64,000 bases of DNA. Source: Fibrobacteria bacterium. Its GTDB lineage: Bacteria; Fibrobacterota; Fibrobacteria; UBA11236. Both the position numbers and the translations under genes were made by a program. The stretch spans positions 1-64,000 of the forward strand of contig JANYDA010000001.1 in assembly GCA_025360005.1 (NCBI GenBank), written 5' to 3'. Positions 9,695 to 52,672 of this stretch are shown piece by piece. The first letter of the stretch is position 1; every line of letters starts with the position of its first letter. The notes beneath the pieces were generated by a model. That model was given only the letters and a program-made list of their open reading frames with translations. It did not search any database and had not been told where the DNA came from.

Positions 9695-10345
9695 ATGGCC
9701 ATGGAGGAAGAACCGGAAGAAAGCTTCGATCAGGATGAAGAGGAATACCTCGAAGCCCGCATCGACAATATTTCCGTCAGCAATCTGGGCTTCATCGTCT
9801 TCCTCAAAGCCATCGGCGACTCCCGGGTGCTGCCCATTTTCATCGGGGCCAATGAAGCCCAATCCATCGCCATCGCCTACAACAACCAGACCCCGCCCCG
9901 TCCCCTGACGCATGATCTGATGAAAAACGTGCTGGGGATGCTTGACGTGGAGGTCACGAAGATCCAAGTGACTTCGCTTTCCGAGAATACCTTCTACGGC
10001 CGAATCCATTTCAAGAAAGAAGGCATCGAGGATATGGATATCGATGCGCGCCCTTCGGACGCCATCGCTTTGGCCCTGCGCTATAAGGCGCCCATCTTCG
10101 TCCACAAGGACGTATATGAAAGCGCGGCGATAGTGGTCAAGGACGGCGGAGAAAACGCCGCCGAAGCCGCAAGCGATCCTGAATCCGATGAGGAGTCAAA
10201 GGGCGAAACCGATTCGGCCGGGGACACGCATATGTCCCAGCTGGAGCGGCTCAAGGAAAAACTACAGCGGGCCCTGAAGGCGGAGCATTACGAAGAAGCC
10301 GCGAGGATCCGGGATGAGCTGAAGCGGTTTGGGGAGGGGAACTGA
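9695..10345 (+). CDS. Bifunctional nuclease (DUF151) fused to a UVR domain
   Basis: Residues about 20-150 are a bifunctional nuclease (BFN/DUF151) domain, recognised by FIVFLKAIGDSRVLPIFIG, EAQSIA, and RPSDAIALALRYKAPIFV. The last 35 residues form a UVR helical hairpin (LKRALKAEHYEEAARIRDEL-type sequence), the module by which UvrB contacts UvrC and which is also attached to several BFN proteins. An acidic Ser/Asp/Glu linker joins the two. The frame runs upstream inside ychF; the ATG at 9695 behind GGGAAAATC is the sensible start (a second ATG is at 9701). The role of BFN proteins in bacteria is poorly known; nucleic-acid binding is likely. Confidence 0.9.
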   Translation: MAMEEEPEESFDQDEEEYLEARIDNISVSNLGFIVFLKAIGDSRVLPIFIGANEAQSIAIAYNNQTPPRPLTHDLMKNVLGMLDVEVTKIQVTSLSENTFYGRIHFKKEGIEDMDIDARPSDAIALALRYKAPIFVHKDVYESAAIVVKDGGENAAEAASDPESDEESKGETDSAGDTHMSQLERLKEKLQRALKAEHYEEAARIRDELKRFGEGN

Positions 10346-10355
10346 ATCCTCCCCC

Positions 10356-11198
10356 TTATCTTGGAGGCAGACCGAAATTGAGTTCATCGACACCCGCTGT
10401 TTTAGCGGTTGGACCATGATTACCATCACCGGGATTTTTATTTTTTTCCGGTGGAGTCATCAGAACCGCGGTCCCTACTCCAACCACGGCTAAAGCAGCT
10501 ACGCCTCCTGCGGCTTTCTTCCAGGTCCAGAAACCCGGGCTTTTATCCAGTAAGGCTTCCTTTTCCTTAGTGCTGAGGGCCCCGTCCGGACGATCAGCCT
10601 CAGATGCCTTGCGGTCCGTATTACCTTTGGTCAGATCCATGTTGTTGATTGCGTGCCAATTGGATTCCATGGCGTAAAGGCTTCCATCCGGGAGGATCAT
10701 GCCGGAGCTGCCCTTGAACCAACAATTGATGATTTTCACTTGGAAAGAAAAGGCGGTGATCGGCGTCGGCGCCTTCATCACGCCAGCGTATTCCATTTCC
10801 AGCCGGCCTCCTTCGGATACTTCTATGCCGCCCCAAGCGCGCCGCCCCGCCTCCACGCCGTTGCGGTTGCTGTCCAGGGATCCGCTGATGGAAACGTAGG
10901 AGTTCTTGGTCCCCTTAATGATGAGCGTACCTTCCACCTTGATAACGCTGTTCAAAGTGGGTTGGGCGAAATAAAGCATGGTGCCGGGATAGACCACGGT
11001 GGTAACGCCCTTGCGCACGAATACGGTATCGCAGTTGAGGGCGAACGGGAATTTGCCGACTTGGTCTTCCTTCCCAATCACGGTTGGCAGGCTTTGATAG
11101 AAATCCCGGTTCTCCAGGCAACTGGCGGCGCCGACATCTCCGGCCGCAGCGGCAAGCAAGAAGAGGGCTGGGACGATAAAACGGATTGTGCGGATCAT
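10356..11198 (-). CDS. Exported beta-helix-like protein with C-terminal membrane anchor
   Basis: The 280-residue product has a signal peptide (residues 1-24, ending in a GDVGAA site). After a Cys-containing start (SCLENRDFY) comes a short right-handed beta-helix-like stretch (residues about 60-170: VVYPGTMLYF, KVEGTLIIKG, WGGIEVSEGGRLEMEYA), the polymer-like repeats used in pectate-lyase-type solenoids. A transmembrane helix (AAGGVAALAVVGVGTAVLM) follows at about 230-248, leaving a polar tail. Its ATG overlaps the stop of the 1380-residue gene by four bases (ATGA), so the two are translationally coupled and probably interact. The fold is inferred; there is no catalytic motif that I can see. 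Confidence 0.8.
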   Translation of the reverse strand: MIRTIRFIVPALFLLAAAAGDVGAASCLENRDFYQSLPTVIGKEDQVGKFPFALNCDTVFVRKGVTTVVYPGTMLYFAQPTLNSVIKVEGTLIIKGTKNSYVSISGSLDSNRNGVEAGRRAWGGIEVSEGGRLEMEYAGVMKAPTPITAFSFQVKIINCWFKGSSGMILPDGSLYAMESNWHAINNMDLTKGNTDRKASEADRPDGALSTKEKEALLDKSPGFWTWKKAAGGVAALAVVGVGTAVLMTPPEKNKNPGDGNHGPTAKTAGVDELNFGLPPR

Positions 11199-14100
11199 GG
11201 GGAAACCAACATCCTTTTCTGTAGTCTGGCTTGTTTGCCGCCGGCAACCACGGTGAGCCGGTAGAGATAAATGCCCGGATTCCAGGCGGAGGCATCCAAC
11301 GTTACCACCTGATGCCCGACATGGATATCGTCCAAACGGGTGCGGGATACCGAACGGCCACGCATGTCCGAGACATCCAGGATGGCGTGACGCTCCCCAT
11401 TGTCCCAGGCGGGCCAGTCCAACGCCACATTGGTCTTGCCGCGGAACGGATTGGGGAAATTCTGCGACAGACCCAGCTCCTTGGGCGCTCCCGCCTGGAT
11501 GATCTGGATGCGTTCAGCGATAAAGGCCGCATCGCCGGACAGCAGGCGATAATCATTGGCGCCGGCGGTAATGGCAATCGATCGCAGCGAGGCTTCGTCG
11601 TATATCTTCCCCGATTTCATATCGACCAGGCGAACTTGGCGCTGGTTTGCGTCGATTCCTTGCAAGGCGCCCGGCCTGAGCGAGAACGCGGCATCCCCTG
11701 TATGGCCGGCCACTATTTCCACGCTTTCATCGACAGCATCCAGATTGGCGACCTTCTTGATCATAAAGCCGGACTTACCACCTACCCGGAGCTGGACACC
11801 CGCTCCGGGTGAGGGAAGGAAAGGGATATTTATCCGATCGGGATCGGCTATCAGATCCATGTGAGAGTCGCCCCAATCGGACTTCAACTCCAGCCGCAAA
11901 GTGCGGTTGAAAGCGAGTGCAGAGGGTTTTAAGGCCGGCTGGCCGGTGGTATCCGCGAAGGGATCGAAAACCAACTCATCCGGTTGCTCTGAATACACGG
12001 CATAGCCTTCGAAGTCGCGCAATACGGTGAAACCGTTTTCCCAGCTGTATTTGATTGCATTGGTTGCCGTCACGTTCGCATTGTAACCCAGTCGGAAGAA
12101 GACGGGATTTTTCTGCATGCCTGCATGGACGCGCGATGTCAGGATCCGCGCCGGATAGGGATTGGAAATGAAATTCCAGCCCATTCCAAGCGGGACCGAT
12201 TGGGACTTGGCGCTGATCAGACCCGAAATGGAATTCAATCGAAGGGTGCAGGTGCGCGAAGAAGCGAAAAGGTATGCGACTCCCGGTTTCACTTTCTCGG
12301 CATTGATATTCGGAATGCCGCTGAACTCCGAAATCGCTCCGTTCCATTTCAGGGTTACCAGAGAATCCCTGTCAGAAATTAGCGTGGTGTCGGGTGCGAC
12401 CGTTCCCCGAGCAACGATATTGTAAAAGTTCCCTTCAAAAGGAAAACCAATCAACCGCCATCGTTTCAAGGTCAAGGTATCGAGGTCCGAGGGTATTTCG
12501 ATTTTCAGTGACGGTCCTGATAATAGCTGGAATGGGCGCGTAATGGCATCCGTCCCCATATAGTAGCGTATCCGGTAGAAATACATGCTGGTGGGCGACA
12601 CGCTGAATACCGTCGAAGAATCGATGGGTTTTTGAACGCAGGAATCCATTTTCACCGCGCCCGTCTCATTGAATGATTTCAACTCCACGCAGTAGCCGGT
12701 TACCGGCTTGACCAGGCTATCCAGGGACTTGGAGAAGATGCTCAATAGATTGGTGGCCGGATCGAATGCGGGGGAGATTCGAGCGTAATTCTCCGGCGGG
12801 GCGAATTTCTCGATAACCACTATGAATTCATCTTGCGCGGGAACCTGCTTGAGGACTATGTGACCGAGCGTGGAAGATTGATCCACCGTCAGTTTCACCC
12901 ATTTGTTTCCATGAAAACCCCATGCGGCCACACTATCCTTGATCTTGTAGACGTTAACGGGGAATGAGAGCGAGTAGTTCCCGTACGGTATTAGATCCGT
13001 CTTCCCAATCGATCGCCCGCCCAAAAAGCGCGCGCTTGCCAGGTTGGTATCGATCTGCGCAGCCGAATCCAGGAAACCGGCGGTCAGCCTTACCGCCGAC
13101 AATCGACCTGAACTCGAGGAAGTGAAGCCTTCCAACACGGTGCTATCCCCAATGCCCTCGGTGGCGGAAGTGGTGGAAACCTGCGATATGACGTTGAATT
13201 TCATGGCCAGGAAAAAAACCTTTCCCGCGTCCAAGTTGCCGATAGAGATGGTGAAAAATCCGGTGGAGTCCGGCTTGATGGTATCCAACTTAGAAACGGC
13301 CGAACCGGTATTGACAAAGACATTCTGGTCTTTTGTTCCCGATAATCGAAGGATGATGCGATCGGAAGAATCGCGTCCGGTCCAAACGAACTTATAACCG
13401 CTGGAAACCCGGCCATACTGGGCCGTATCGATTTGTATGCCTTCGGATACGGTAAGCTGATACCCATTCTTGGTTATGGTTCGCAATGTCCCGCCCTTTA
13501 CAGGGTAAGTCGAATCGCCCCTGGGGGCGCTCAATCTTTCCACCAGATGCGCTATCATGCGACTGCCCGAAGCCGTGTTAAAGGGAACCTTTGCGGTAAA
13601 GCGGTTCACGGTATCCATAGCGACGGGCACTAGCAAACCGGATGCGGGGATATACCAAAACACGTTCGCCGGAGAAAAAGGGGCCGACTTGGCCGGCTTG
13701 GTCCCGAAAGTAACTGAATCCGACAGGCTCGCCGTGGTTTCAAAAGTGAAGTTAGTGCTTAGGCTGCGAAGATTATTAGGGAGAATCGCCGGCCCTTGTT
13801 CACTGACGATGGTGGCCCCCGCCGAATCGACTTTGGAAAAAACCAACTTGTCATTGGCTGTCAGCTTGGTTTCCGAATTCTGGGGGAGGACGATGTTGAA
13901 GCCCCGCATAGTATTGCCGGAATTGGCCAGCACGTAATACCGCGCCGTCAGCAATTTGTTCGCGAATAGGCTGGGGATGTCATTCAAGTTGCCGGAGACG
14001 GTTTGCAAGGCGGCTTGTCCCAGCGAGTCCTTCGCAAGCAGAATGGGTTGCCCGTATTTGGATGCGATATTGTATTTGATACTGTCGATCCGGAACGCAC

Positions 14101-38035: not shown

Positions 38036-39397
38036 TCACACCACTCCCGACCTGATTATTTCCCGGTAGAGGAACGCGCTTTCCTTGGGAATGCGCTCCT
38101 GGGTTTCATAGTCCACGTAGACGATGCCGAAGCGCTTGAGGTAGCCCTCCGCCCATTCGAAGTTGTCCATCAGGCTCCACTGGAAGAAACCGGCCAACCC
38201 TAAACCTTCGCGCACGGCGCGGTGCGCCTCGCGGACATGGTTGCGCATCCATTGCACTCTGTCCAGATCGATGATGCGGCCTTTTTCGTCGCGGATATCC
38301 TCACAGGCGCAGCCCGTTTCCGAGATGTAGGATTTGTTCACGCCGTAGGCTTCCCGATAATAGCGGGTGCACCAGTACAGGGCCTGCGGCACCGGCTTGA
38401 GCCAATCCAACGCCAGGTGCGGATAACCGTTGGGGAAAGGCAGCATGCGGTAGCCGGCGGCATCATCTGCGGGCTCCACGAAAAAACCAGAGTATACGTT
38501 GATACCGATGAAATCCGTGGGCGAGGAAATGAGCTTCATGTCCCCATCCTTAATCACCGGGGCGTCGGCGCCTTGCTCCTCCAGCCACCAGGGCGCGTAG
38601 GCCCCTTTGAAGATGGGATCGTTAAGGTAGGAACCAATGCGGACAAAGGCCTTCTGGGCCGCTTCCTCATGCGCGGGCGTTTCCACCAGGGGAACGGGGA
38701 TGATGGGGTTGTTGACCAGGCCCACTTCCGCGTCTTTGCGCGCGAATTGGCGGACGATGCGGACGGCCATGCCGTGGGTGAGAAAGGCGTTGTGATAGGC
38801 CGCGTTCAGATCCTTCCGCGGCACGATGAGTCCGGGCGCATGGCGGCCATCCCCGTAGCCCATCCCGATGAAGCAAGGGATTTCATTATGCGTCATCCAG
38901 TTCTTGACGCGATCGCCCAAGCGTTTGACCACCGCTTCCGCATAGGGCCCGAAAGCTTCCACGATATCGCGGTTGACCCAACCGCCCTGGTCCTGGAGCG
39001 ATTGCGGCAGATCCCAATGGAACAAGGTGGTGAAGGGGACGATACCCGCTTCCAGGAGACCGTCCACCAAACGATCATAGAAATCCAGCCCGGCCTTGTT
39101 GACGGGACCTCGGCCCCCGGGAATCACGCGCGGCCAGGCGGTGCTGAACCGGTAGGCCTGTATCCCCAACTCCTTCATCAGGCGGATGTCCTTTTTCCAT
39201 AGATGATAATGATCGCAAGCGACATCCCCGTTATGGCCCAAAGCGACCTTGCCGGGAGTGCGGCAGAACTTGTCCCAAATGCTTTCCCCGCGTCCGTCGG
39301 TCCAGGCCGCGCCTTCCACTTGGAAAGAGGCCGTGGCGCAACCCCATAAAAACCCTTCCGGAAACCAATCCTTATCCACCCTGGGTCTAATCGACAT
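38036..39397 (-). CDS. GH1 beta-glucosidase
   Basis: A 453-residue cytoplasmic family 1 glycoside hydrolase: FLWGCATASFQVEGA at the start, YRFSTAWPRVIPGG, and LFHWDLPQSLQDQGGW. The acid/base Glu172 is in THNEI (the family usually has NEP) and the nucleophile Glu360 in YISETG (usually TENG). Both acids are present and the substitutions are within the family range. The lack of a signal peptide means it cleaves cellobiose or cellodextrins after import. It is divergent from the ABC transporter genes, sharing a 196-base control region with them. Confidence 0.95.
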   Translation of the reverse strand: MSIRPRVDKDWFPEGFLWGCATASFQVEGAAWTDGRGESIWDKFCRTPGKVALGHNGDVACDHYHLWKKDIRLMKELGIQAYRFSTAWPRVIPGGRGPVNKAGLDFYDRLVDGLLEAGIVPFTTLFHWDLPQSLQDQGGWVNRDIVEAFGPYAEAVVKRLGDRVKNWMTHNEIPCFIGMGYGDGRHAPGLIVPRKDLNAAYHNAFLTHGMAVRIVRQFARKDAEVGLVNNPIIPVPLVETPAHEEAAQKAFVRIGSYLNDPIFKGAYAPWWLEEQGADAPVIKDGDMKLISSPTDFIGINVYSGFFVEPADDAAGYRMLPFPNGYPHLALDWLKPVPQALYWCTRYYREAYGVNKSYISETGCACEDIRDEKGRIIDLDRVQWMRNHVREAHRAVREGLGLAGFFQWSLMDNFEWAEGYLKRFGIVYVDYETQERIPKESAFLYREIIRSGVV

Positions 39398-39440
39398 GAG
39401 TCCTTCCTGCCGGCGCCTGTATTGAGTCCGGAAAATGCGG

Positions 39441-39470
39441 GGTTATGCGGTTATTTACCGTTATTTAGTG
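39441..39470. repeat. Tandem GGTTAT-type repeats in the GH1/ABC control region
   Basis: Three direct copies follow each other: GGTTATGC, GGTTATTTAC, CGTTATTTAG, at 8-10 base spacing. Direct repeats on one face of the helix suit an activator or repressor binding as a row of monomers. They lie about 45 bases upstream of the GH1 start and 125 bases upstream of the ATPase gene. Confidence 0.5.
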
Positions 39471-39593
39471 GCGAAAGGAACGCCTTCGGTTCCGGCGGGG
39501 GCCCGATTGTCGCGCGGGCCGAAATCTCACATTACGCGAACCGGTTTTCCCTTTTTCCCACTAACCCCAGTGCGCCCCTATGCGGTGGGAAGG

Positions 39594-40676
39594 ATGCGTT
39601 CCGTGGCAGAAGTCGTTCTGAAGCATATCCATAAGGTCTACGACGGAGGTGTCGTAGCGGTCCAGGACCTTTCCTTTGAGGTCCAGGACAAGGAATTCCT
39701 GGTCCTGGTGGGACCATCCGGCTGCGGCAAGTCCACTCTTTTGCGTATGATCGCGGGCCTGGAGGAAATCACTTCCGGGGACCTGTTCATCGACGGCAAG
39801 CGCTGTAATGACGTGGCGCCCAAGGACAGGGACATCGCCATGGTGTTCCAGAACTATGCACTGTACCCCCACATGACCGTGGAAGAGAACCTGGCCTTCG
39901 GCCTAAAGCTGCGGAAGCTGCCCAAGGATGAGATCAGGCGCCGCGTGGGCGAAGCCGCGGAGATGCTGGGCATCACGGCTTATCTATCCCGCAAGCCTAA
40001 AGCCCTGTCCGGAGGCCAGCGCCAGCGCGTGGCCCTGGGCCGCGCCATAGTCCGCAAGCCCAAGGTATTCCTGTTCGATGAACCGCTTTCCAACCTGGAC
40101 GCCAAGATGCGCGTGCAGATGCGCGTTGAGATTTCCCGTCTGTCCGGGCAACTGCAGACCACGATGATCTACGTGACCCACGACCAGACCGAAGCCATGA
40201 CCATGGGCCATCGCATCGTGTGCATGAAAGACGGGGTGATCCAGCAATACGGGACCCCGATGGAATTGTATAAGCATCCCACCAATAAATTCGTGGCCGG
40301 CTTTATCGGCATGCCCCCCATGAATTTCCTGCCTTGCGAATGGAACGGCGAGTCCTTAGCGATCACCGGCGCCGGGGCAACGGGGGTGTACGCCACCGAT
40401 TTCAAAACGCATCCGGCCGCAAAACCCATCCTGGGAGTGCGCCCGGAGCATTTGCGCCTGGAGCGCATGGCCAACGATGGCGGCAAAGGCGAAGCGCGGG
40501 CGGGAATAGCCGCCGAAGTGGAAGTGGTAGAACCTTTGGGGGCCGAGACCCTTGTGTATTGCCGGGCCGGCCAGCATCGGGCCGTGGCGCGCATCCATCC
40601 GGATATGCTGGTGGGTCGGGGCGACCGGGTCACCTTGATTCCCGATGCCGCGCATTTGCATTTCTTCGATGCCTGA
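39594..40676 (+). CDS. Sugar ABC transporter ATPase (MsmK/UgpC type)
   Basis: A 360-residue ATPase of the carbohydrate uptake group 1 family. Walker A GPSGCGKST, Q loop VFQNYALYPHMTV, signature LSGGQRQRVALGRAI, Walker B VFLFDEPLSNLD and the His switch YVTHDQTEAM are all intact; a regulatory TOBE/OB domain follows (about 245-360, with LGVRPEHLRLE). Such ATPases can drive several sugar importers. The frame is open to 39435, but the ATG at 39594 behind GGTGGGAAGG gives the usual start. First gene of the locus; the binding-protein gene follows 30 bases later. Confidence 0.95.
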   Translation: MRSVAEVVLKHIHKVYDGGVVAVQDLSFEVQDKEFLVLVGPSGCGKSTLLRMIAGLEEITSGDLFIDGKRCNDVAPKDRDIAMVFQNYALYPHMTVEENLAFGLKLRKLPKDEIRRRVGEAAEMLGITAYLSRKPKALSGGQRQRVALGRAIVRKPKVFLFDEPLSNLDAKMRVQMRVEISRLSGQLQTTMIYVTHDQTEAMTMGHRIVCMKDGVIQQYGTPMELYKHPTNKFVAGFIGMPPMNFLPCEWNGESLAITGAGATGVYATDFKTHPAAKPILGVRPEHLRLERMANDGGKGEARAGIAAEVEVVEPLGAETLVYCRAGQHRAVARIHPDMLVGRGDRVTLIPDAAHLHFFDA

Positions 40677-40706: not shown

Positions 40707-42161
40707 ATGAATTATCCGGGTGCCGTAAAAACCGTTGTCTCCGCCTTGGCATTGGCGGCGTTAAGCCTGTTGGCAGGATGCAACAAATCCGCGGCCGGCG
40801 CAAAAGGCGAAAAGGGCGAGGCCGCCGCCGCCAGCGTGCCCAACGGTCCCGGCGAATTGCTGGTCTGGGTGATGCCCAACTCCCCGAAGCCGGAAAAGGA
40901 CATGGAGTCTTTGCTGGAGCCATTCAAGGCAGCGCATCCGGACGTGACCGTGAAAGTCTCCGTGCTGGACTGGGGCAGCGCCTGGACCAAACTCACCACC
41001 GCCGCCATCTCCGGCGACGGTCCGGACGTGGTCCAGCTCGGCACCACCTGGTGTCCTTTCATGACGGACCTGGGGGCCTTGCTCCCGCTGGACGACTTGG
41101 ACGCGGAAATCCACGTGCAGCAATCCTTCCTGGCCAGCACCTGGGCGGCCGCGAAGCCGCGGACTTCCGAGCATGTGACCTCGGTTCCCTGGTTCATCGA
41201 CGTGCGCCCCATGTTCTATCGCACGGACGTATTCGCCCAGGCCAAGGTGGATCCCAAATCCACGGCCACTTGGGACGGCTACCTGGCAGCATTGGAAAAG
41301 ATCAAAGCCGCCGGCATCAAGAACAACGGCGAATCGGTCTCTCCCATAGGCTTTCCGGGCAAGAACGACTGGAACGTGGTGCACAACTTCGCTCCCTGGA
41401 TCTGGAGCGCGGGCGGCGACTTCCTGAGTCCGATGGGAGATAAATGCGTGCTGAACAGCCCGGAGGCCATGAAAGGCATCCTCTTCTACCTGGACATGGT
41501 CCGCAAAGGCCTTAATCCCAAGACCAACATGGAGAAGAACACGGCCCAGGTCTCGGCGGACTTCGATGCGGGCCGCCTGGCCACCTTTTTTGAATCGACC
41601 ATAAAAAATGTCTACCTGCAACGGCCCCCGGAGCAGGGCGGTTCCGCCGGCAGCCACGTGGCCGGCAATTACGGCGTTCTTATGCCCCCCGCCGGGCCCG
41701 TCAAACGCTCCCTGTTCATGGGCGGATCGCATCTGGCGGTATTCAAATCCTCCAAGCGCCCGGACCTGGCGAAAATGCTGGTGCGTTACATGGCCGCCGA
41801 CAGCTCGGCGCAATTGGCCTACGCGGACATCTCCGGATTCCTTCCCGCGCTCAAGAGCGCTTTCGCCAGCCCCTACTTCACGGCCGATGCCAAGCGCAGC
41901 GTGTTCAAGGACATGGTGCAATACGGCCGATGCTATCCGGCCGTGCCCTACTGGGGCGAGATTGAAACAGCCATCCTGATGAAGCGCCTGGGCAACCTCT
42001 TCGACATCGCAGCGGAAGTGAACGGCCCGTATTCGGAAGCGCTGGTGAAGGCGGAGGTGGATGCGGCGGTTAAGGACATCGACGGCCAGATCGAAACCCA
42101 TTTCAAGAGCCATCCCGAGCAAAGGGAATTGCTCCAGAAATCGCTGGCTGCGGCGGAATAG
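40707..42161 (+). CDS. Sugar ABC transporter solute-binding lipoprotein
   Basis: A 484-residue extracellular binding protein (family 1, the maltose-binding fold). The signal peptide ends in the lipobox LLAGC with Cys25, so it is tethered to a membrane. The body starts LLVWVMPNSPKPEKDMESLLE, and there are the expected VKVSVLDWGSAWTKLTTAAI and GDGPDVVQLGTTW loops, with aromatic sugar-stacking residues (WTW-type patches). AGGGAGCC precedes the ATG. It should deliver oligosaccharides, probably cellodextrins given the neighbours, to the permease pair. Confidence 0.93.
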   Translation: MNYPGAVKTVVSALALAALSLLAGCNKSAAGAKGEKGEAAAASVPNGPGELLVWVMPNSPKPEKDMESLLEPFKAAHPDVTVKVSVLDWGSAWTKLTTAAISGDGPDVVQLGTTWCPFMTDLGALLPLDDLDAEIHVQQSFLASTWAAAKPRTSEHVTSVPWFIDVRPMFYRTDVFAQAKVDPKSTATWDGYLAALEKIKAAGIKNNGESVSPIGFPGKNDWNVVHNFAPWIWSAGGDFLSPMGDKCVLNSPEAMKGILFYLDMVRKGLNPKTNMEKNTAQVSADFDAGRLATFFESTIKNVYLQRPPEQGGSAGSHVAGNYGVLMPPAGPVKRSLFMGGSHLAVFKSSKRPDLAKMLVRYMAADSSAQLAYADISGFLPALKSAFASPYFTADAKRSVFKDMVQYGRCYPAVPYWGEIETAILMKRLGNLFDIAAEVNGPYSEALVKAEVDAAVKDIDGQIETHFKSHPEQRELLQKSLAAAE

Positions 42162-42166
42162 GCCTG

Positions 42167-43102
42167 ATGTTCAAAAAGCTGCTGCGTTCCATTTCCCGGA
42201 ACCGCGTCCCGTATTTTTTCCTGTTGCCCACCATTATCGGGATGTTGGTGCTGCAGGCCGCGCCCATCCTCCAGGGTTTGTATCTGGGCTTCTTGCGCAG
42301 CCGCAAGGACAAACTTTTGGATTATCTCTCCGCGCCCTGGGCGGGACTGGACAATTACCGGGAGATACTCTTCAATCCCAACAGCCCCATCCGTTCCGGC
42401 CTGTGGGACGCGGTCCGCAACACCGCCTGCTACACCGTGGCCGTTACCATCGGCACTTTGGCCGTGGGCACCGCGGCCGCCTTGCTGGTCAACCGGGAAT
42501 TCCGTTTCCGGGCCGCGGCCCGCACCCTGATGCTTTTCCCCTGGATTGTACCCACTTATGTGGTCGGCCTGTTGTGGGGGTTCCTGTGGCAGCGCGAAGT
42601 GGGCCTCATCAATATCGTGCTGGTGGATTGGCTGCATCTCTTCGCCGTGAAGCCCACCTGGCTCATCGGCCCCAATACCCTTTGGGCCATCATCATTCCC
42701 ACCATCTGGCGGCAATGGCCGTTTTCCATGCTCATGCTGTTGGCCGGCCTGCAAGGCATCCCCAAGGACGTCTACGAAGCCGCGGAAATCGACGGCGCCA
42801 ACAAATGGCAGGCGTTCCGCCGCATCACCTGGCCCTTGCTGAAACCGGTTTGGGCCATCCTCATCCTGCACGGGCTCATCTTCAACGTCTACTCCTTCAA
42901 CATCGTGATCATGATGTTCGGCAACGGCGCCGGATATCCCGGCAAGCACGGGGATCTTTTGATGACGGATCTGTTCCGCAACTCGTTCCAGATGTGGGAT
43001 TTCGGCACCGGAGCGGCCATGTCCTCCCTGCTGATGCTCGCCATGATGACCCTGGTTTTCATCTGGTACCGCATCTTCCGGGACCAGCTCACGGGGAAAT
43101 GA
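42167..43102 (+). CDS. Sugar ABC transporter permease, MalF type
   Basis: A 311-residue permease with six membrane helices and the EAA coupling motif (EAAEIDGANKWQAFRRI) at residues 204-220, which docks into the ATPase Q loop. The first helix is preceded by RNRVPYFFLLPTIIGM, typical of the MalF/UgpA type. It has normal length and no inserted domain. Its start is only five bases behind the binding-protein stop, and the second permease follows 11 bases after, so the four genes form one message. Confidence 0.95.
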   Translation: MFKKLLRSISRNRVPYFFLLPTIIGMLVLQAAPILQGLYLGFLRSRKDKLLDYLSAPWAGLDNYREILFNPNSPIRSGLWDAVRNTACYTVAVTIGTLAVGTAAALLVNREFRFRAAARTLMLFPWIVPTYVVGLLWGFLWQREVGLINIVLVDWLHLFAVKPTWLIGPNTLWAIIIPTIWRQWPFSMLMLLAGLQGIPKDVYEAAEIDGANKWQAFRRITWPLLKPVWAILILHGLIFNVYSFNIVIMMFGNGAGYPGKHGDLLMTDLFRNSFQMWDFGTGAAMSSLLMLAMMTLVFIWYRIFRDQLTGK

Positions 43103-43113
43103 CCGGTTAAAAC

Positions 43114-44952
43114 ATGCAACCCAAAAGCCGCAAACCCTTAAGCCGCCTCATTACCGGATTGACCTGGTTCCTGGTCGCCGTCCACCTGGTCCCCATCGTG
43201 TGGATGGTGTATTGCGGGCTGAAGGACAATCAGGAAATCCTTTCCGGCAAAGTGATGCCGGGCCGCCGCCAGAACGAGATCGTGTTCCTCAGGGAAATGC
43301 CGCAAGGCTACTTGGCCGGCACCGCGGACGGCGGCATCACCTTGTTCGACAGGCAGGTGCTGAAGAAAATCCGCCATGCGGAATTGGGAACCTTCGCCAC
43401 CGGATTCCTTTTGGAGGGAGGTACCTTGTGGGCCGCCTCCAGCAACCGCGGCTTGCAGGAAATCGACGCGACCGATCTGAGCGTGCGCCATACCTACGGG
43501 GTGGAAAAGATAGCCGCGGCCTATGGGAGCGCCTGGAGCACGTTGTGGGTGAACGAAGTGGCCGGTTCCTCCCTGGCCCGGCACGGGGACACCCTGTTCC
43601 TATCGTACCAGATCAAGGGTTACCCCGGTGTTACGGCCTTCATTCCCGCGTCGGGACGCTTCCTGCCCATGCCCGGATTTGCGACCAAGGAGGGCGGCGT
43701 GGTGCGTTCGATGACGCGGCCTCCCCAGGATTCCGGAAAGCAGGGAAACCTGGTGCTGGCGACGGAGCAAGGTATTTTCCTCCGCGCCCTGGATTCCGAT
43801 CGGCCGGACAAATTGTACCGGGCCGGGAAATTGCCTTCCGTGCCGGAACGCCTCTGCGCCATCGATTCCCATCGCTTGCTGTTGAGCGCGGATTCGCGCG
43901 CCTTCGTTTTTGATCTGGGTGGCGATTCCGTCCTGGCCTGGCTGGACCGGAAGCCCGGCAGCGGCATCATCACCGCTTTCGCGGCCGATCGCGGACGCAT
44001 CTGGCTGGGGGATTCCCGGGGCGCCACTTCCCTGGCGGACACGGCCATCGGGGATTCCAATGCTGCGGTCTCGGTATTTGAACCCCGGTTCCCGGCCGTT
44101 GCGGGAACCTCAGGCGATATCACCTCCTTCCGCATCACGTCCATCCTGCCCCTGGCTACCGGAGGCGTACTGCTGGGCGGACCCAATGGAACATTGTCCA
44201 TGCTCGATGCCTACGGCAAACCCGTGGCGCAGGCTTTGGCGCCCCGGCCCTCCATCTATATCCATTGGCGCAACTACGTAGACCTATGGCGCAACATCGA
44301 CTTCGGCCTGTACCTAAAGAACAGCTTTATCGTCTGTTTCGGCGTCATGGTCTTGGCCATGGTGCTGGCATCCATGGGCGGCTATGCGTTGGCGCGCTAC
44401 AACTTCCCCGGCAAAAACCTCTTCGGCTATTCCGTGCTGGCTACGCAGATGGTGCCGGGCATTATGCTATTGCTGCCTCTATACCTGATGTTCATCAGCT
44501 TCAGCCGCGCCACCGGGCTCATCGTCAAAGGCACCTATAGCGGTTTGATCCTGACCTACGCGGCCTACTTCGTGCCCTTTTCGATCTGGATCCTGCGCGG
44601 ATTTTTCGCATCCTTGCCCAAGGAGCTGGAAGAAGCGGCCTTGGTGGACGGGTGCGGGCCCATCCAGGCCTTCTTCCGCATCATCATCCCTTCCGCGCTC
44701 CCCGGCATCATCGCCACCGGCGTCTACGTTTTCCTTTCCGCCTGGGACGAGTTGATGTTCGCCTGGGTGCTGACCGACGAGAAAACCTATACTATCCCGG
44801 TGGGGATACGACTGTTTGTCGGGAATTTCCAGAACCGGTATGATTTGATGATGGCGGCCGCTACGGTATCCACCATACCCGTAATGATTCTTTTCTTCTT
44901 GATGCAAAAGCATATCGTTTCCGGCCTCACGGCAGGGGCAGTCAAGGAATAA
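43114..44952 (+). CDS. MalG-type permease with inserted beta-propeller
   Basis: A 612-residue permease, about twice the family's 280. The first helix (about 15-34) leads into the canonical CGLKDNQEILSG; the fold resumes at IHWRNYVDLWRNIDFGLYLKN (residue 383 on), followed by five helices and the EAA motif (EEAALVDGCGPIQAFFRIII, 506-525). Between them, residues about 45-383 hold a soluble domain with seven repeats of the strand pattern of beta-propellers, at about 66-80, 104-119, 160-180, 212-227, 253-269, 295-309 and 351-366; clear examples are TLWAASSNRGLQEIDA, RIWLGDSRGATSLAD and GVLLGGPNGTLSMLDA. By topology it lies in the periplasm, near the binding-protein dock. I know no permease of this build. 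It may sense or gate sugar uptake. Confidence 0.9.
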   Translation: MQPKSRKPLSRLITGLTWFLVAVHLVPIVWMVYCGLKDNQEILSGKVMPGRRQNEIVFLREMPQGYLAGTADGGITLFDRQVLKKIRHAELGTFATGFLLEGGTLWAASSNRGLQEIDATDLSVRHTYGVEKIAAAYGSAWSTLWVNEVAGSSLARHGDTLFLSYQIKGYPGVTAFIPASGRFLPMPGFATKEGGVVRSMTRPPQDSGKQGNLVLATEQGIFLRALDSDRPDKLYRAGKLPSVPERLCAIDSHRLLLSADSRAFVFDLGGDSVLAWLDRKPGSGIITAFAADRGRIWLGDSRGATSLADTAIGDSNAAVSVFEPRFPAVAGTSGDITSFRITSILPLATGGVLLGGPNGTLSMLDAYGKPVAQALAPRPSIYIHWRNYVDLWRNIDFGLYLKNSFIVCFGVMVLAMVLASMGGYALARYNFPGKNLFGYSVLATQMVPGIMLLLPLYLMFISFSRATGLIVKGTYSGLILTYAAYFVPFSIWILRGFFASLPKELEEAALVDGCGPIQAFFRIIIPSALPGIIATGVYVFLSAWDELMFAWVLTDEKTYTIPVGIRLFVGNFQNRYDLMMAAATVSTIPVMILFFLMQKHIVSGLTAGAVKE

Positions 44953-49456: not shown

Positions 49457-52400
49457 GTGGCAGCCGTGAATCCGATCCGAAATACCAGCCGCGTTTACGA
49501 ACTAACCGGACTAACCGGGCTAGCCGCACGATCGGGAAAGGCCGCAAAAAACGGCCTGGCCGGCGCCGTCGCTGCCGCCGCGATGGCTTTGCTATGCGGC
49601 TGCGCGCTCCAATTCAAGCCGCTGCCTTCGGCCTCCGCCGCGGGCGGGGACGGCGTCTCCCATGGAGATCCGCGCACGGTGGCGCGCTTCTTCGACGACG
49701 ATTTCGTGGCGGGAGGCTACCAGTATACCTATCCGGACGCGGCCAAGATCTTCATTCCGGAGGAATCCGGGCATGAGAGCGAAGTGTCCCTGCAATTCGA
49801 TCTGGTCGCCAATGATTATTCCGGCGGATCGGTATGCCTCTACAACCTGATGTACGATCTGACGCCGTACTATTCCCGCGGGGCTTTGCAATTCTGGATC
49901 AAGGGCGCGCGCGGCGGCGAAATCGCCTGGGTGGCCCTGGTCGATGACGAGAACCGCGACAGCAAGAAAACCGTGGTGCGCCTGCCCTTGAACGATCTGG
50001 GAGGCATCGGCAACGAGTGGAAACTGGTGAGCATCCCCTTGGCCAAGTTCGGCCGCAAGGGCGTGTATTGGGACGCCAAGAAACGCATCGAAGTGCCCAA
50101 CGCTTTCGACTGGAACGCGGTGACGGAATTCCGCATCGAAATCAAGAAAGCGGAAAACCCCTCCTTCCGGGTCTGGGTCGACGACATCAAGGTGCTCCGC
50201 GACGTGTTCGACGCGGCCGAAGAGAAGCCGACCGACGACTGGCAGGATAAGCAGGAAACCATCCCCATGCCCGTGACGCAAGCCAATCACGGCAAGGTGC
50301 TGCATACTTTGTTCCAGGATGCCTTGCCGGAAGGCGGCTTCACCTATCTTTACGGCGGCAAGACCGCGGCGAAGGTGCAACCGGGGCCCAAGCCGGAGCA
50401 AGGCGTATTGGCTTCCTACCTGGACGGCAATGAATATTCCGGCGTGACGCTGGCGCTGGGCGAAGGCAAGAACATCGATCTGCGCAATCCCCGCTCCGCC
50501 CGCGGAGCCCTTTGTTTCTGGGCCAAAGCCGCGCCCGGCGTGCGCAGCATCTACGTAGGCCTGCTGGACAGCCGCCCGGACGGCATCAAGGTACAGACCA
50601 AACAGGTGCTGGGAGACTACGGCCCCGTCGACACGGTGTGGAATTATTTCCAGATCCCTCTCAAGAAATTCGGCGCCACCGGCTTGTATTGGGACGCCGG
50701 TAAGATGGCGGAGATTTCCGCGGCCATGAAATGGGACCAGATCAACGAAGTGCGTTTCTCGGAGAACAAGGACGAGAATAAAACGCCGGCGGGACAGCCG
50801 ATTTCATTTTACGCCAAGGACATCGTGATCACCGATGACATCCCCGGATACGTGGATCCGGACGAATACTGGACCTCATTCAAATCCTCCGAGCCGGACA
50901 TGCTTTTGCACGATTTCGAAGCGGGTGCGCAAGGCTGGGAAAGCGGCAAGGGTCCCAAGTCGGAAGTGGCTTTCGCCGTGGATGCCCTGAAGGGTATTCC
51001 GGGCAAATCCCTGGCCATCACCTATCGCCTGGCCGATTGGTGCGACGTACTCTACCGTTACGATACCAACGCCAGCCCGGCGCGCATGCGCGATTGGACC
51101 AAGCATTACGGCATCCGCGTTTCCATCTATACGCCTAAGGCCTTCCAAGGGGTGACCATCCAGGTGCATGACGCCGGCAACGAAGTGTTCGTGGCCAATA
51201 CCGGCGCCACTCGCGGCTGGAACGACATCCTGGTGCCCTTCCGAAACTTCGTCAAGTTCCCGTATTACCAGCCGCCGGACGCGGTCCAGAACGGAAAATT
51301 CGATCTGGGCGCCGTGCGCGTGCTGGACTTCAAGCCCGCCGGGGACGGCACCAGCGGCTCCTTCCGCGTGGACAACGTGGCGCTGACCAATATGCGCGAG
51401 GCGCCCAAGCATGTTGCGCCCGCGCGCCGCGAATTCAAGGTCGCCGGAGACTTCAACAAAACCGTCACGGCCAAGATCAACGATGGCCTGTTCGGCATCA
51501 ACGCCGCGTTGTGGGACGGGGATTTACTGAATTCCAGGACCAAGGACTACGTCAAAGCGGTGAAGCATCAAGTGGTGCGCTATCCGGGCGGCTTACGCGC
51601 CGATGATGATCATTGGAAGCAGGTATTGGATAAAAAAGACGGACTGGTGGACACGGATGAATTCCTGGCCTGGCTGCAGGAGACCGGCAACGAAGGCATG
51701 TTCACGGTCAATTTCGGAAAAGGAACCCCGCAAGAGGCCGCCGATTGGGTGCGCTATGTGAACGTCACCAAGCATGCGCATGTGCAGTTGTGGGAAGTGG
51801 GCAATGAACTCTACGGCGATTGGCATCCCCAGCATACCACGGGCGATGACTACGGCAAGCGCGCCGCCGAATTCATCCAGGCCATGAAGGCGGCCGACCC
51901 GACCATCAAGGTGGCCGTGGTGGGCGTGTTGGACGGCGAGTGGAACAAGCAGGTCCTCAACTCCACCAAGGATTTGGCCGATGCCCTCATCATCCACCAT
52001 TATCCCCAGCACAGCGGCGAAGAGAACGACCAGGCCTTGCTGGCCTCGCCGCAAAGCCTGGACGAGATTATTCCCAGCGTGCGCAAGCAGATCAAGGAAT
52101 ACGGGACTCCGGGCAAGAGCTACGGAATCTGGCTGACGGAATGGAACTCCGTGGACTTCAAACCCGGACCGCAAACCCTGTCGCTGGCAAACGGCCTGTT
52201 CGCGGCGGACTACCTGGGCATGCTGGCCAAGCACAACATCGATCAGGCGGACTACTGGGACATACACAACAACCTTACCGAGCAAGGCGGCGACTACGGC
52301 TACCTGTCCCGCTCCGGCGCCGCCGACGGCGATCTGGTTCCGCGCCCCTCCTACCACGCTTTCAAGCTGGCGAGCGAAGCCCTGCGCGGCCGGATGGCTG

Positions 52401-52672
52401 AATGCAAGGTGCTGGGCGACGAAAGCGATGTCACTTGCTACCTGACGGAAAGGCCGGGCGGAGGCAAGTCCATCCTTCTCATCAACAAGCATCCGGTGAC
52501 GGAAGCGGTGGTAACCTTGGCGATACCCGGTTTCAAAGGGGCCGGCACATTGAAAAAGTTGGATGCTTCCGATGCCAAACCGGGCCCCGGCCAAGGCGAA
52601 CGCGTGAACCTCTCCGAAACCATGAAGGTGACTTTGCCCGCGTATTCCGCGGTCGCAATTTTCCAAAACTGA
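49457..52672 (+). CDS. GH51-type endoglucanase lipoprotein with three CBM11-like modules
   Basis: A 1071-residue enzyme resembling the Fibrobacter endoglucanase F/Cel51A type. A lipobox-like LLCGC (about residues 45-49) suggests lipid anchoring. Three CBM11-like beta-sandwich modules follow at about 70-250, 280-470 and 490-650; each ends in a VDDIKVL/VDNVALT-type strand. The catalytic domain starts near FGINAALWDGDLLN (about 680); Glu784 in VGNELYG is the acid/base and Glu895 in WLTEWNS the nucleophile. CBM11 binds beta-glucans, so cellulose or mixed-linkage glucan is the likely target. The GTG start at 49457 has AGGGAG upstream; GH44/GH79-like folds are the alternatives. Confidence 0.85.
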   Translation: MAAVNPIRNTSRVYELTGLTGLAARSGKAAKNGLAGAVAAAAMALLCGCALQFKPLPSASAAGGDGVSHGDPRTVARFFDDDFVAGGYQYTYPDAAKIFIPEESGHESEVSLQFDLVANDYSGGSVCLYNLMYDLTPYYSRGALQFWIKGARGGEIAWVALVDDENRDSKKTVVRLPLNDLGGIGNEWKLVSIPLAKFGRKGVYWDAKKRIEVPNAFDWNAVTEFRIEIKKAENPSFRVWVDDIKVLRDVFDAAEEKPTDDWQDKQETIPMPVTQANHGKVLHTLFQDALPEGGFTYLYGGKTAAKVQPGPKPEQGVLASYLDGNEYSGVTLALGEGKNIDLRNPRSARGALCFWAKAAPGVRSIYVGLLDSRPDGIKVQTKQVLGDYGPVDTVWNYFQIPLKKFGATGLYWDAGKMAEISAAMKWDQINEVRFSENKDENKTPAGQPISFYAKDIVITDDIPGYVDPDEYWTSFKSSEPDMLLHDFEAGAQGWESGKGPKSEVAFAVDALKGIPGKSLAITYRLADWCDVLYRYDTNASPARMRDWTKHYGIRVSIYTPKAFQGVTIQVHDAGNEVFVANTGATRGWNDILVPFRNFVKFPYYQPPDAVQNGKFDLGAVRVLDFKPAGDGTSGSFRVDNVALTNMREAPKHVAPARREFKVAGDFNKTVTAKINDGLFGINAALWDGDLLNSRTKDYVKAVKHQVVRYPGGLRADDDHWKQVLDKKDGLVDTDEFLAWLQETGNEGMFTVNFGKGTPQEAADWVRYVNVTKHAHVQLWEVGNELYGDWHPQHTTGDDYGKRAAEFIQAMKAADPTIKVAVVGVLDGEWNKQVLNSTKDLADALIIHHYPQHSGEENDQALLASPQSLDEIIPSVRKQIKEYGTPGKSYGIWLTEWNSVDFKPGPQTLSLANGLFAADYLGMLAKHNIDQADYWDIHNNLTEQGGDYGYLSRSGAADGDLVPRPSYHAFKLASEALRGRMAECKVLGDESDVTCYLTERPGGGKSILLINKHPVTEAVVTLAIPGFKGAGTLKKLDASDAKPGPGQGERVNLSETMKVTLPAYSAVAIFQN

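Follow-up and report, generated by a model that had tools for sequence, protein, structure and literature searches.

Little is understood of sugar uptake in Fibrobacterota, although these bacteria are major cellulose degraders; type I importers, for their part, are a textbook transport system. In the window analysed here, a stretch of 64,000 nucleotides from a Fibrobacteria bacterium (contig JANYDA010000001.1), one permease gene of such an importer is far longer than expected, and this raises the question of what its additional segment is, where it lies and what it may contribute to uptake. On the evidence of sequence comparison and structure models, we consider it highly probable (about 0.93) that the gene product is the MalG-type half of a beta-glucoside/cello-oligosaccharide importer of the CUT1 class (type I), with a complete seven-bladed beta-propeller inserted in the periplasmic loop P1.

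The permease and its inserted domain

The gene at 43114..44952 (plus strand) is a single uninterrupted frame of 612 amino acids, recognised as a MalG-type permease by its domain matches. Specifically, Pfam BPD_transp_1 (PF00528) matches residues 421-604 (E 1.2e-18), and the MalG and SugB relatives in the PDB align to residues 384-611 only. The putative first transmembrane region (TM1, about residues 10-37, with the TM1 region taken as residues 4-35; 43123..43218, plus strand), placed from the model and the sequence, has a basic N-terminus and a presumably cytoplasmic N-end. The remaining transmembrane part, from the WxNY motif to the C-terminus (residues 384-612; 44263..44949, plus strand), contains an intact EAA coupling motif, EEAALVDG, at residues 506-513 (44629..44652, plus strand). 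Approximately 330 residues without a known domain separate TM1 from the W-x-N-Y motif. When aligned with the propeller-less MalG proteins of Thermus thermophilus (285 aa) and T. oshimai, the insertion spans residues 54-383 (43273..44262, plus strand), the junction reading FPKTPQ-WGNY in Thermus and MPGRRQ-[insertion]-HWRNY in the window. The first-pass annotation had proposed a real, continuous gene with an intact EAA motif and an insertion at about residues 45-383; the gene, the motif and the end at 383 all stand, while the start has to be moved nearer to residue 54.

In addition to BPD_transp_1 and the EAA motif, the operon itself, with a MalF-type permease, a family-1 solute-binding protein (SBP) and a MalK/UgpC-type ATPase, agrees with assignment to the CUT1/MalG-type permeases. 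The short P1 loop of characterised MalG and SugB proteins, a usual rather than family-defining trait, is absent, and the insertion takes its place. In the MalG family the N-terminus is cytoplasmic and the TM1-TM2 loop is periplasmic. Since homology to MalG thus makes this loop periplasmic, and the basic N-terminus fits, the propeller is predicted to lie on the outer side of the membrane, in the first periplasmic loop and at the binding-protein dock, as originally suggested.

A permease gene joined artificially to a propeller gene during assembly or annotation could in principle give the same picture. This explanation was rejected, and we regard its probability as close to negligible: the frame has no stops or frameshifts, GC3 is alike in the insert (0.78) and its flanks (0.79), and an equal architecture is conserved in 28 genomes, from assemblies of 28 species that include the cultured Fibrobacter intestinalis ATCC 43854.

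An AlphaFold2 model of the window permease, built on a 12-sequence alignment, gave 28 strands within residues 56-375. Following strand order, these group into seven blades of four strands each. Blade 1 comprises residues 56-90 (43279..43383), blade 2 residues 97-128 (43402..43497), blade 3 residues 149-185 (43558..43668), blade 4 residues 197-236 (43702..43821), blade 5 residues 246-277 (43849..43944), blade 6 residues 288-322 (43975..44079) and blade 7 residues 343-375 (44140..44238), all on the plus strand. The most conserved motif of the domain, W141-x3-W145-V-N-E-V-x-x-S152 (43534..43569, plus strand), leads into blade 3. The pLDDT is about 57-92 in the propeller, and falls below this in some stretches of the transmembrane region. 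A separate model took the F. intestinalis homologue (32% identical overall) as its own query; with blades assigned in the same way, it also gave 28 strands in a 7x4 arrangement, with propeller pLDDT mostly of 80-94, although both models share the same twelve sequences and are thus not fully independent. This second model has an extra helical subdomain of approximately 120 residues between blades 2 and 3, and a subdomain of about this size is found directly before the W141-S152 block in many other Fibrobacterota, belonging to the other of the two families described below.

Foldseek searches matched propellers with both models; for the window permease these were WD40, BamB and two-component-sensor propellers (E down to 2e-11), while the transmembrane part of that model matched SugB and MalG. 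The seven-bladed propeller that had been suspected from sequence repeats alone is thus supported by structure prediction. The further suggestion of two-component-regulator-type repeats holds in part. The fold does match sensor propellers, and a profile of the domain family reaches the Bacteroides sensor propellers BT4663 and BT4673 with whole-sequence E-values of 2e-8 and 4e-6, summed over weak repeats; the single-domain E-values, however, are weak (0.35 and 0.005), and Pfam Reg_prop stays below cut-off (at best E 0.2, reached by one member out of 11). Weak matches to Pfam PQQ_2 were seen in 5/11 members (best E 3e-6). No propeller family of Pfam or NCBIfam rises above cut-off on the insertion, and membership of a known family of these databases was consequently rejected.

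Distribution and evolution of the insertion

Searching for the architecture across Fibrobacterota, as the first-pass annotation had advised, recovered the propeller-bearing MalG in 28 of 168 genomes, distributed over eight genera and two families and encoded in frames without internal stops (E<=1e-8); the remaining 140 gave no match. Among good-quality Fibrobacterota genomes the count is 17/89. A scan of GTDB genomes with two patterns of conserved peptides, which diverged relatives can escape, returned 11 loci: ten come from genomes titled Fibrobacteres, Fibrobacteria or Fibrobacter, including F. intestinalis ATCC 43854, and the eleventh is a truncated copy (L043) in a metagenome-assembled genome titled 'bacterium'. 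None of the 2,856 plasmid records matching the permease covered 80% of it. A stand-alone propeller that could have served as donor was not found in the organism's own genome. Long frames examined as candidates for further insertion-bearing MalG proteins in the genus (L091-L093, L027) proved to be ordinary permeases.

The number of blades seems to vary among homologues, as far as their sequences indicate, and seven would not be universal. In genera g5 and g7 the loop, by inspection, is shorter or interrupted and blades are apparently missing. Open frames of 603 to 809 aa with a shortened or interrupted propeller, and apparent loss of blades, were observed in Fibrobacterota genera other than that of the window (L072, L073, L075, L077, L085, L086 and L088).

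Within the genus, pairwise dN/dS is 0.16-0.31 for the propeller versus 0.016-0.04 for the transmembrane part; comparisons between the window and its relatives gave 0.05-0.06 (MalF), 0.085-0.10 (the SBP and the GH1 enzyme described below) and 0.09-0.22 (two outer-membrane-barrel-like proteins encoded downstream). All of these ratios are rough, since dS lies close to 1 or higher. Purifying selection acts on the insertion, but its rate of evolution is about ten times that of the transmembrane part; it is constrained, yet the fastest-evolving part of the importer. Few propeller residues are invariant; across 18 aligned sequences the invariant positions include G73, L105, S109, W141, W145, S152, P171, G172, G220, G238, L240, G359 and P377.

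Such a pattern might be expected if the insertion were a tolerated decoration with no particular function, maintained just because it has to fold. Its fast evolution, its variation in length, the apparent blade loss in g5 and g7 and the many Fibrobacterota genomes without a match all point in that direction, but dN/dS is well below 1, the domain has been kept with intact frames in eight genera of two families, and one branch possesses and retains the additional 120-aa helical subdomain. We therefore judge decoration to be improbable. A domain that evolves fast under constraint, with few invariant residues, fits no less well with a scaffold or dock than with a ligand sensor.

Operon context and possible roles of the propeller

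The propeller-bearing permease closes an operon whose order, ATPase-SBP-MalF-MalG, is kept wherever the contig reaches, with no ATPase matched in the operon of L043. In the window, the ATPase, of the MalK/UgpC/MsmX type, lies at 39435..40676 (plus strand), its true start probably being downstream of the listed one. It is followed by an SBP with a lipobox (LLAGC; 40707..42161, plus strand) and by a MalF-type permease of 311 aa (42167..43102, plus strand), which is 51% identical to the 313-aa Thermus MalF over its whole length and has neither the insertion, as had been noted at first reading, nor a domain of the MalF-P2 type. A GH1 beta-glucosidase gene is divergently oriented upstream (38036..39397, minus strand).

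The SBP is homologous over its full length to the Thermus beta-glucoside-binding protein betaGlyBP (PDB 7c63; 41% identity, E 1e-101) and, next, to CbpB (7x0i; E 2e-87), which binds the cellodextrins G2-G5 (PMC9601137). Because of this kinship and of the GH1 genes beside both the window and the Thermus operons, beta-glucosides and cello-oligosaccharides are the most likely predicted substrates, in line with the cello-oligosaccharide class suggested earlier.

What the propeller does can be approached through the partners of the importer. Daus et al. 2007 (ref. 89 of PMC3150292) report that MalE of E. coli/Salmonella contacts the periplasmic loops MalF-P2 and MalG-P1. Since MalG P1 of E. coli touches its binding protein, and MalF here is without a P2 dock, we favour, tentatively and at somewhat less than even odds, a propeller that serves as a platform on which the binding protein docks or is retained. 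Standing above the translocation pathway, it would serve as a protein-protein dock, holding the lipid-anchored SBP close to the importer, perhaps along with another partner from the periplasm or outer membrane. At MalG P1 it would thus do the job performed by MalF-P2 in E. coli, and would raise the local concentration of loaded SBP while not binding sugar itself.

The binding proteins are compatible with docking. A lipobox-like cysteine was present in 9/9 SBP N-termini inspected at propeller loci (the window, L034-L037 and L040-L043), some of the starts having been placed by eye ahead of the first ATG, whereas the two Thermus SBPs have a plain signal peptide without a lipobox. Predicted lipoprotein SBPs thus accompany the propeller, and the soluble Thermus orthologue pairs with a propeller-less MalG, a linkage that draws on one propeller-less outgroup genus. 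Against docking, one might expect a dock to change in step with its SBP, yet conservation is far higher in the SBP than in the propeller; moreover, signalling genes adjoining the operon in other lineages fit sensing better.

These signalling genes are of three kinds. Six loci of the other family (L034:3891-4367, L035:4019-4504, L036:4019-4504, L037:4099-4587, L039:4101-4586 and L040:4115-4603) have, immediately before the ATPase gene of the importer, a gene for a degenerate receiver-like protein of approximately 160 aa. At L034, a gene for a HisKA-receiver histidine kinase (10197-11357) starts a few bases after the propeller-bearing malG. A GGDEF gene lies upstream of the SBP gene at L043. They lend some weight to the idea, raised in part by the first-pass annotation, that the propeller is a sensor, which would bind oligosaccharide or read SBP occupancy and, by relaying this state through the permease, either gate uptake or signal to cytoplasmic regulators, as do the weak profile match to the Bacteroides sensor propellers and the invariance of W141 and W145 in the W-rich motif. 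In the window and its genus relatives, however, none of the genes beside the operon was recognised as a signalling gene, the single-domain scores against the sensors are poor, and no other part of the importer is as weakly conserved as the propeller, with blades apparently lost in some lineages. A sensing role of this kind is, in our opinion, unlikely. Its more elaborate form, in which a built-in sensor of periplasmic cello-oligosaccharide or SBP occupancy would control the importer allosterically and, in some lineages, pass a signal on to the receiver-like, kinase or GGDEF proteins encoded nearby, appears less likely still; if true, one complex would both import sugar and report it.

The genes downstream of the operon suggest a third possibility, namely that the propeller ties the importer to periplasmic and outer-membrane partners, such as barrels and glycosidases, in a trans-envelope uptake complex. 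Directly after the operon, the window and the loci L041 and L044 have a pair of outer-membrane-barrel-like genes together with a CBM30/CBM11 glycosidase-like gene, and part of the set is present at L042, where the contig ends. The dN/dS ranges of propeller and barrels are similar, and both the structural comparison and the Pfam near matches bring up BamB, a propeller that acts as an envelope scaffold. Against such a complex, loci belonging to the other family have the propeller, but no barrel genes were found beside their operons; we consider it doubtful. The window's glycosidase-like gene (49457-52672), downstream of the two barrel-like genes, encodes a 1071-aa protein with CBM30, CBM11 and a weak GH79-type match.

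In conclusion, docking of the binding protein is the role that we tentatively prefer, and a propeller at that position raises the question of how importers recruit lipid-anchored binding proteins.

Comparison with known systems

The importer shares its permease family and EAA coupling with E. coli MalFGK2-MalE (2r6g, 3puv) and the mycobacterial LpqY-SugABC (7cad, 8ja7), but E. coli MalG and mycobacterial SugB have a short P1. E. coli MalFGK2 also carries an extra periplasmic domain in a permease loop, although there it is MalF-P2 and not a propeller.

With respect to the propeller, resemblances extend outside transport. The Bacteroides hybrid two-component sensors BT4663 (4a2l/4a2m) and BT4673 (3ott) share the fold, blade-level profile similarity and a glycan-related periplasmic setting; they are sensor kinases that combine two propellers with a Y_Y_Y domain, and not transport proteins. 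BamB, a periplasmic scaffold propeller of the PQQ_2 type, was reached by Foldseek and by the weak Pfam matches mentioned above; it is an eight-bladed, soluble lipoprotein of the BAM complex.

Among permeases, a parallel exists in PstC of the phosphate importer family, as opposed to the sugar-permease family of the window protein. Large gammaproteobacterial PstC proteins, of 749 aa in Aeromonas caviae (L060:2243-4492) and 677 aa in Pseudomonas aeruginosa (L095:1768-3801), have a WD40-like insertion of approximately 370 aa (PF25173, E 8e-5) between TM1 and the permease domain, the two being 36% identical over the WD40-like stretch. The P. aeruginosa coding sequence as annotated seems to start after TM1. 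No homology between the PstC and MalG insertions was detectable (hhalign probability 0.5%), and a common origin was rejected for lack of signal; the two insertions are probably independent, which suggests repeated gain of propellers by the P1 loops of permeases. The literature searched, where general-term matches were judged from titles and abstract openings, contained no paper joining a propeller with MalG/MalF, PstC or Fibrobacterota transporters. The first-pass annotation had supposed that no such permease is described: the propeller-bearing MalG is indeed absent from the literature searched, while its design has a sequence precedent in the equivalent loop of gammaproteobacterial PstC.

The closest propeller-less relative found is the beta-glucoside importer of Thermus thermophilus (TTH_RS10405-10420, pTT27), of which betaGlyBP is the operon's own SBP. 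In addition to the SBP identity given above, the transmembrane part of MalG is 62% identical, MalF, in T. oshimai, is 51% identical, and a GH1 beta-glucosidase gene adjoins the operon as in the window. In T. thermophilus HB8, malF of this operon is split by an ISTth4 transposase gene (L056:4661-6847). The Thermus system differs in its 285-aa MalG with an empty insertion site, its SBP without a lipobox and a cluster without an ATPase gene. A conserved propeller at the SBP dock, together with so closely related an importer that manages without it, makes a clean excision experiment possible.
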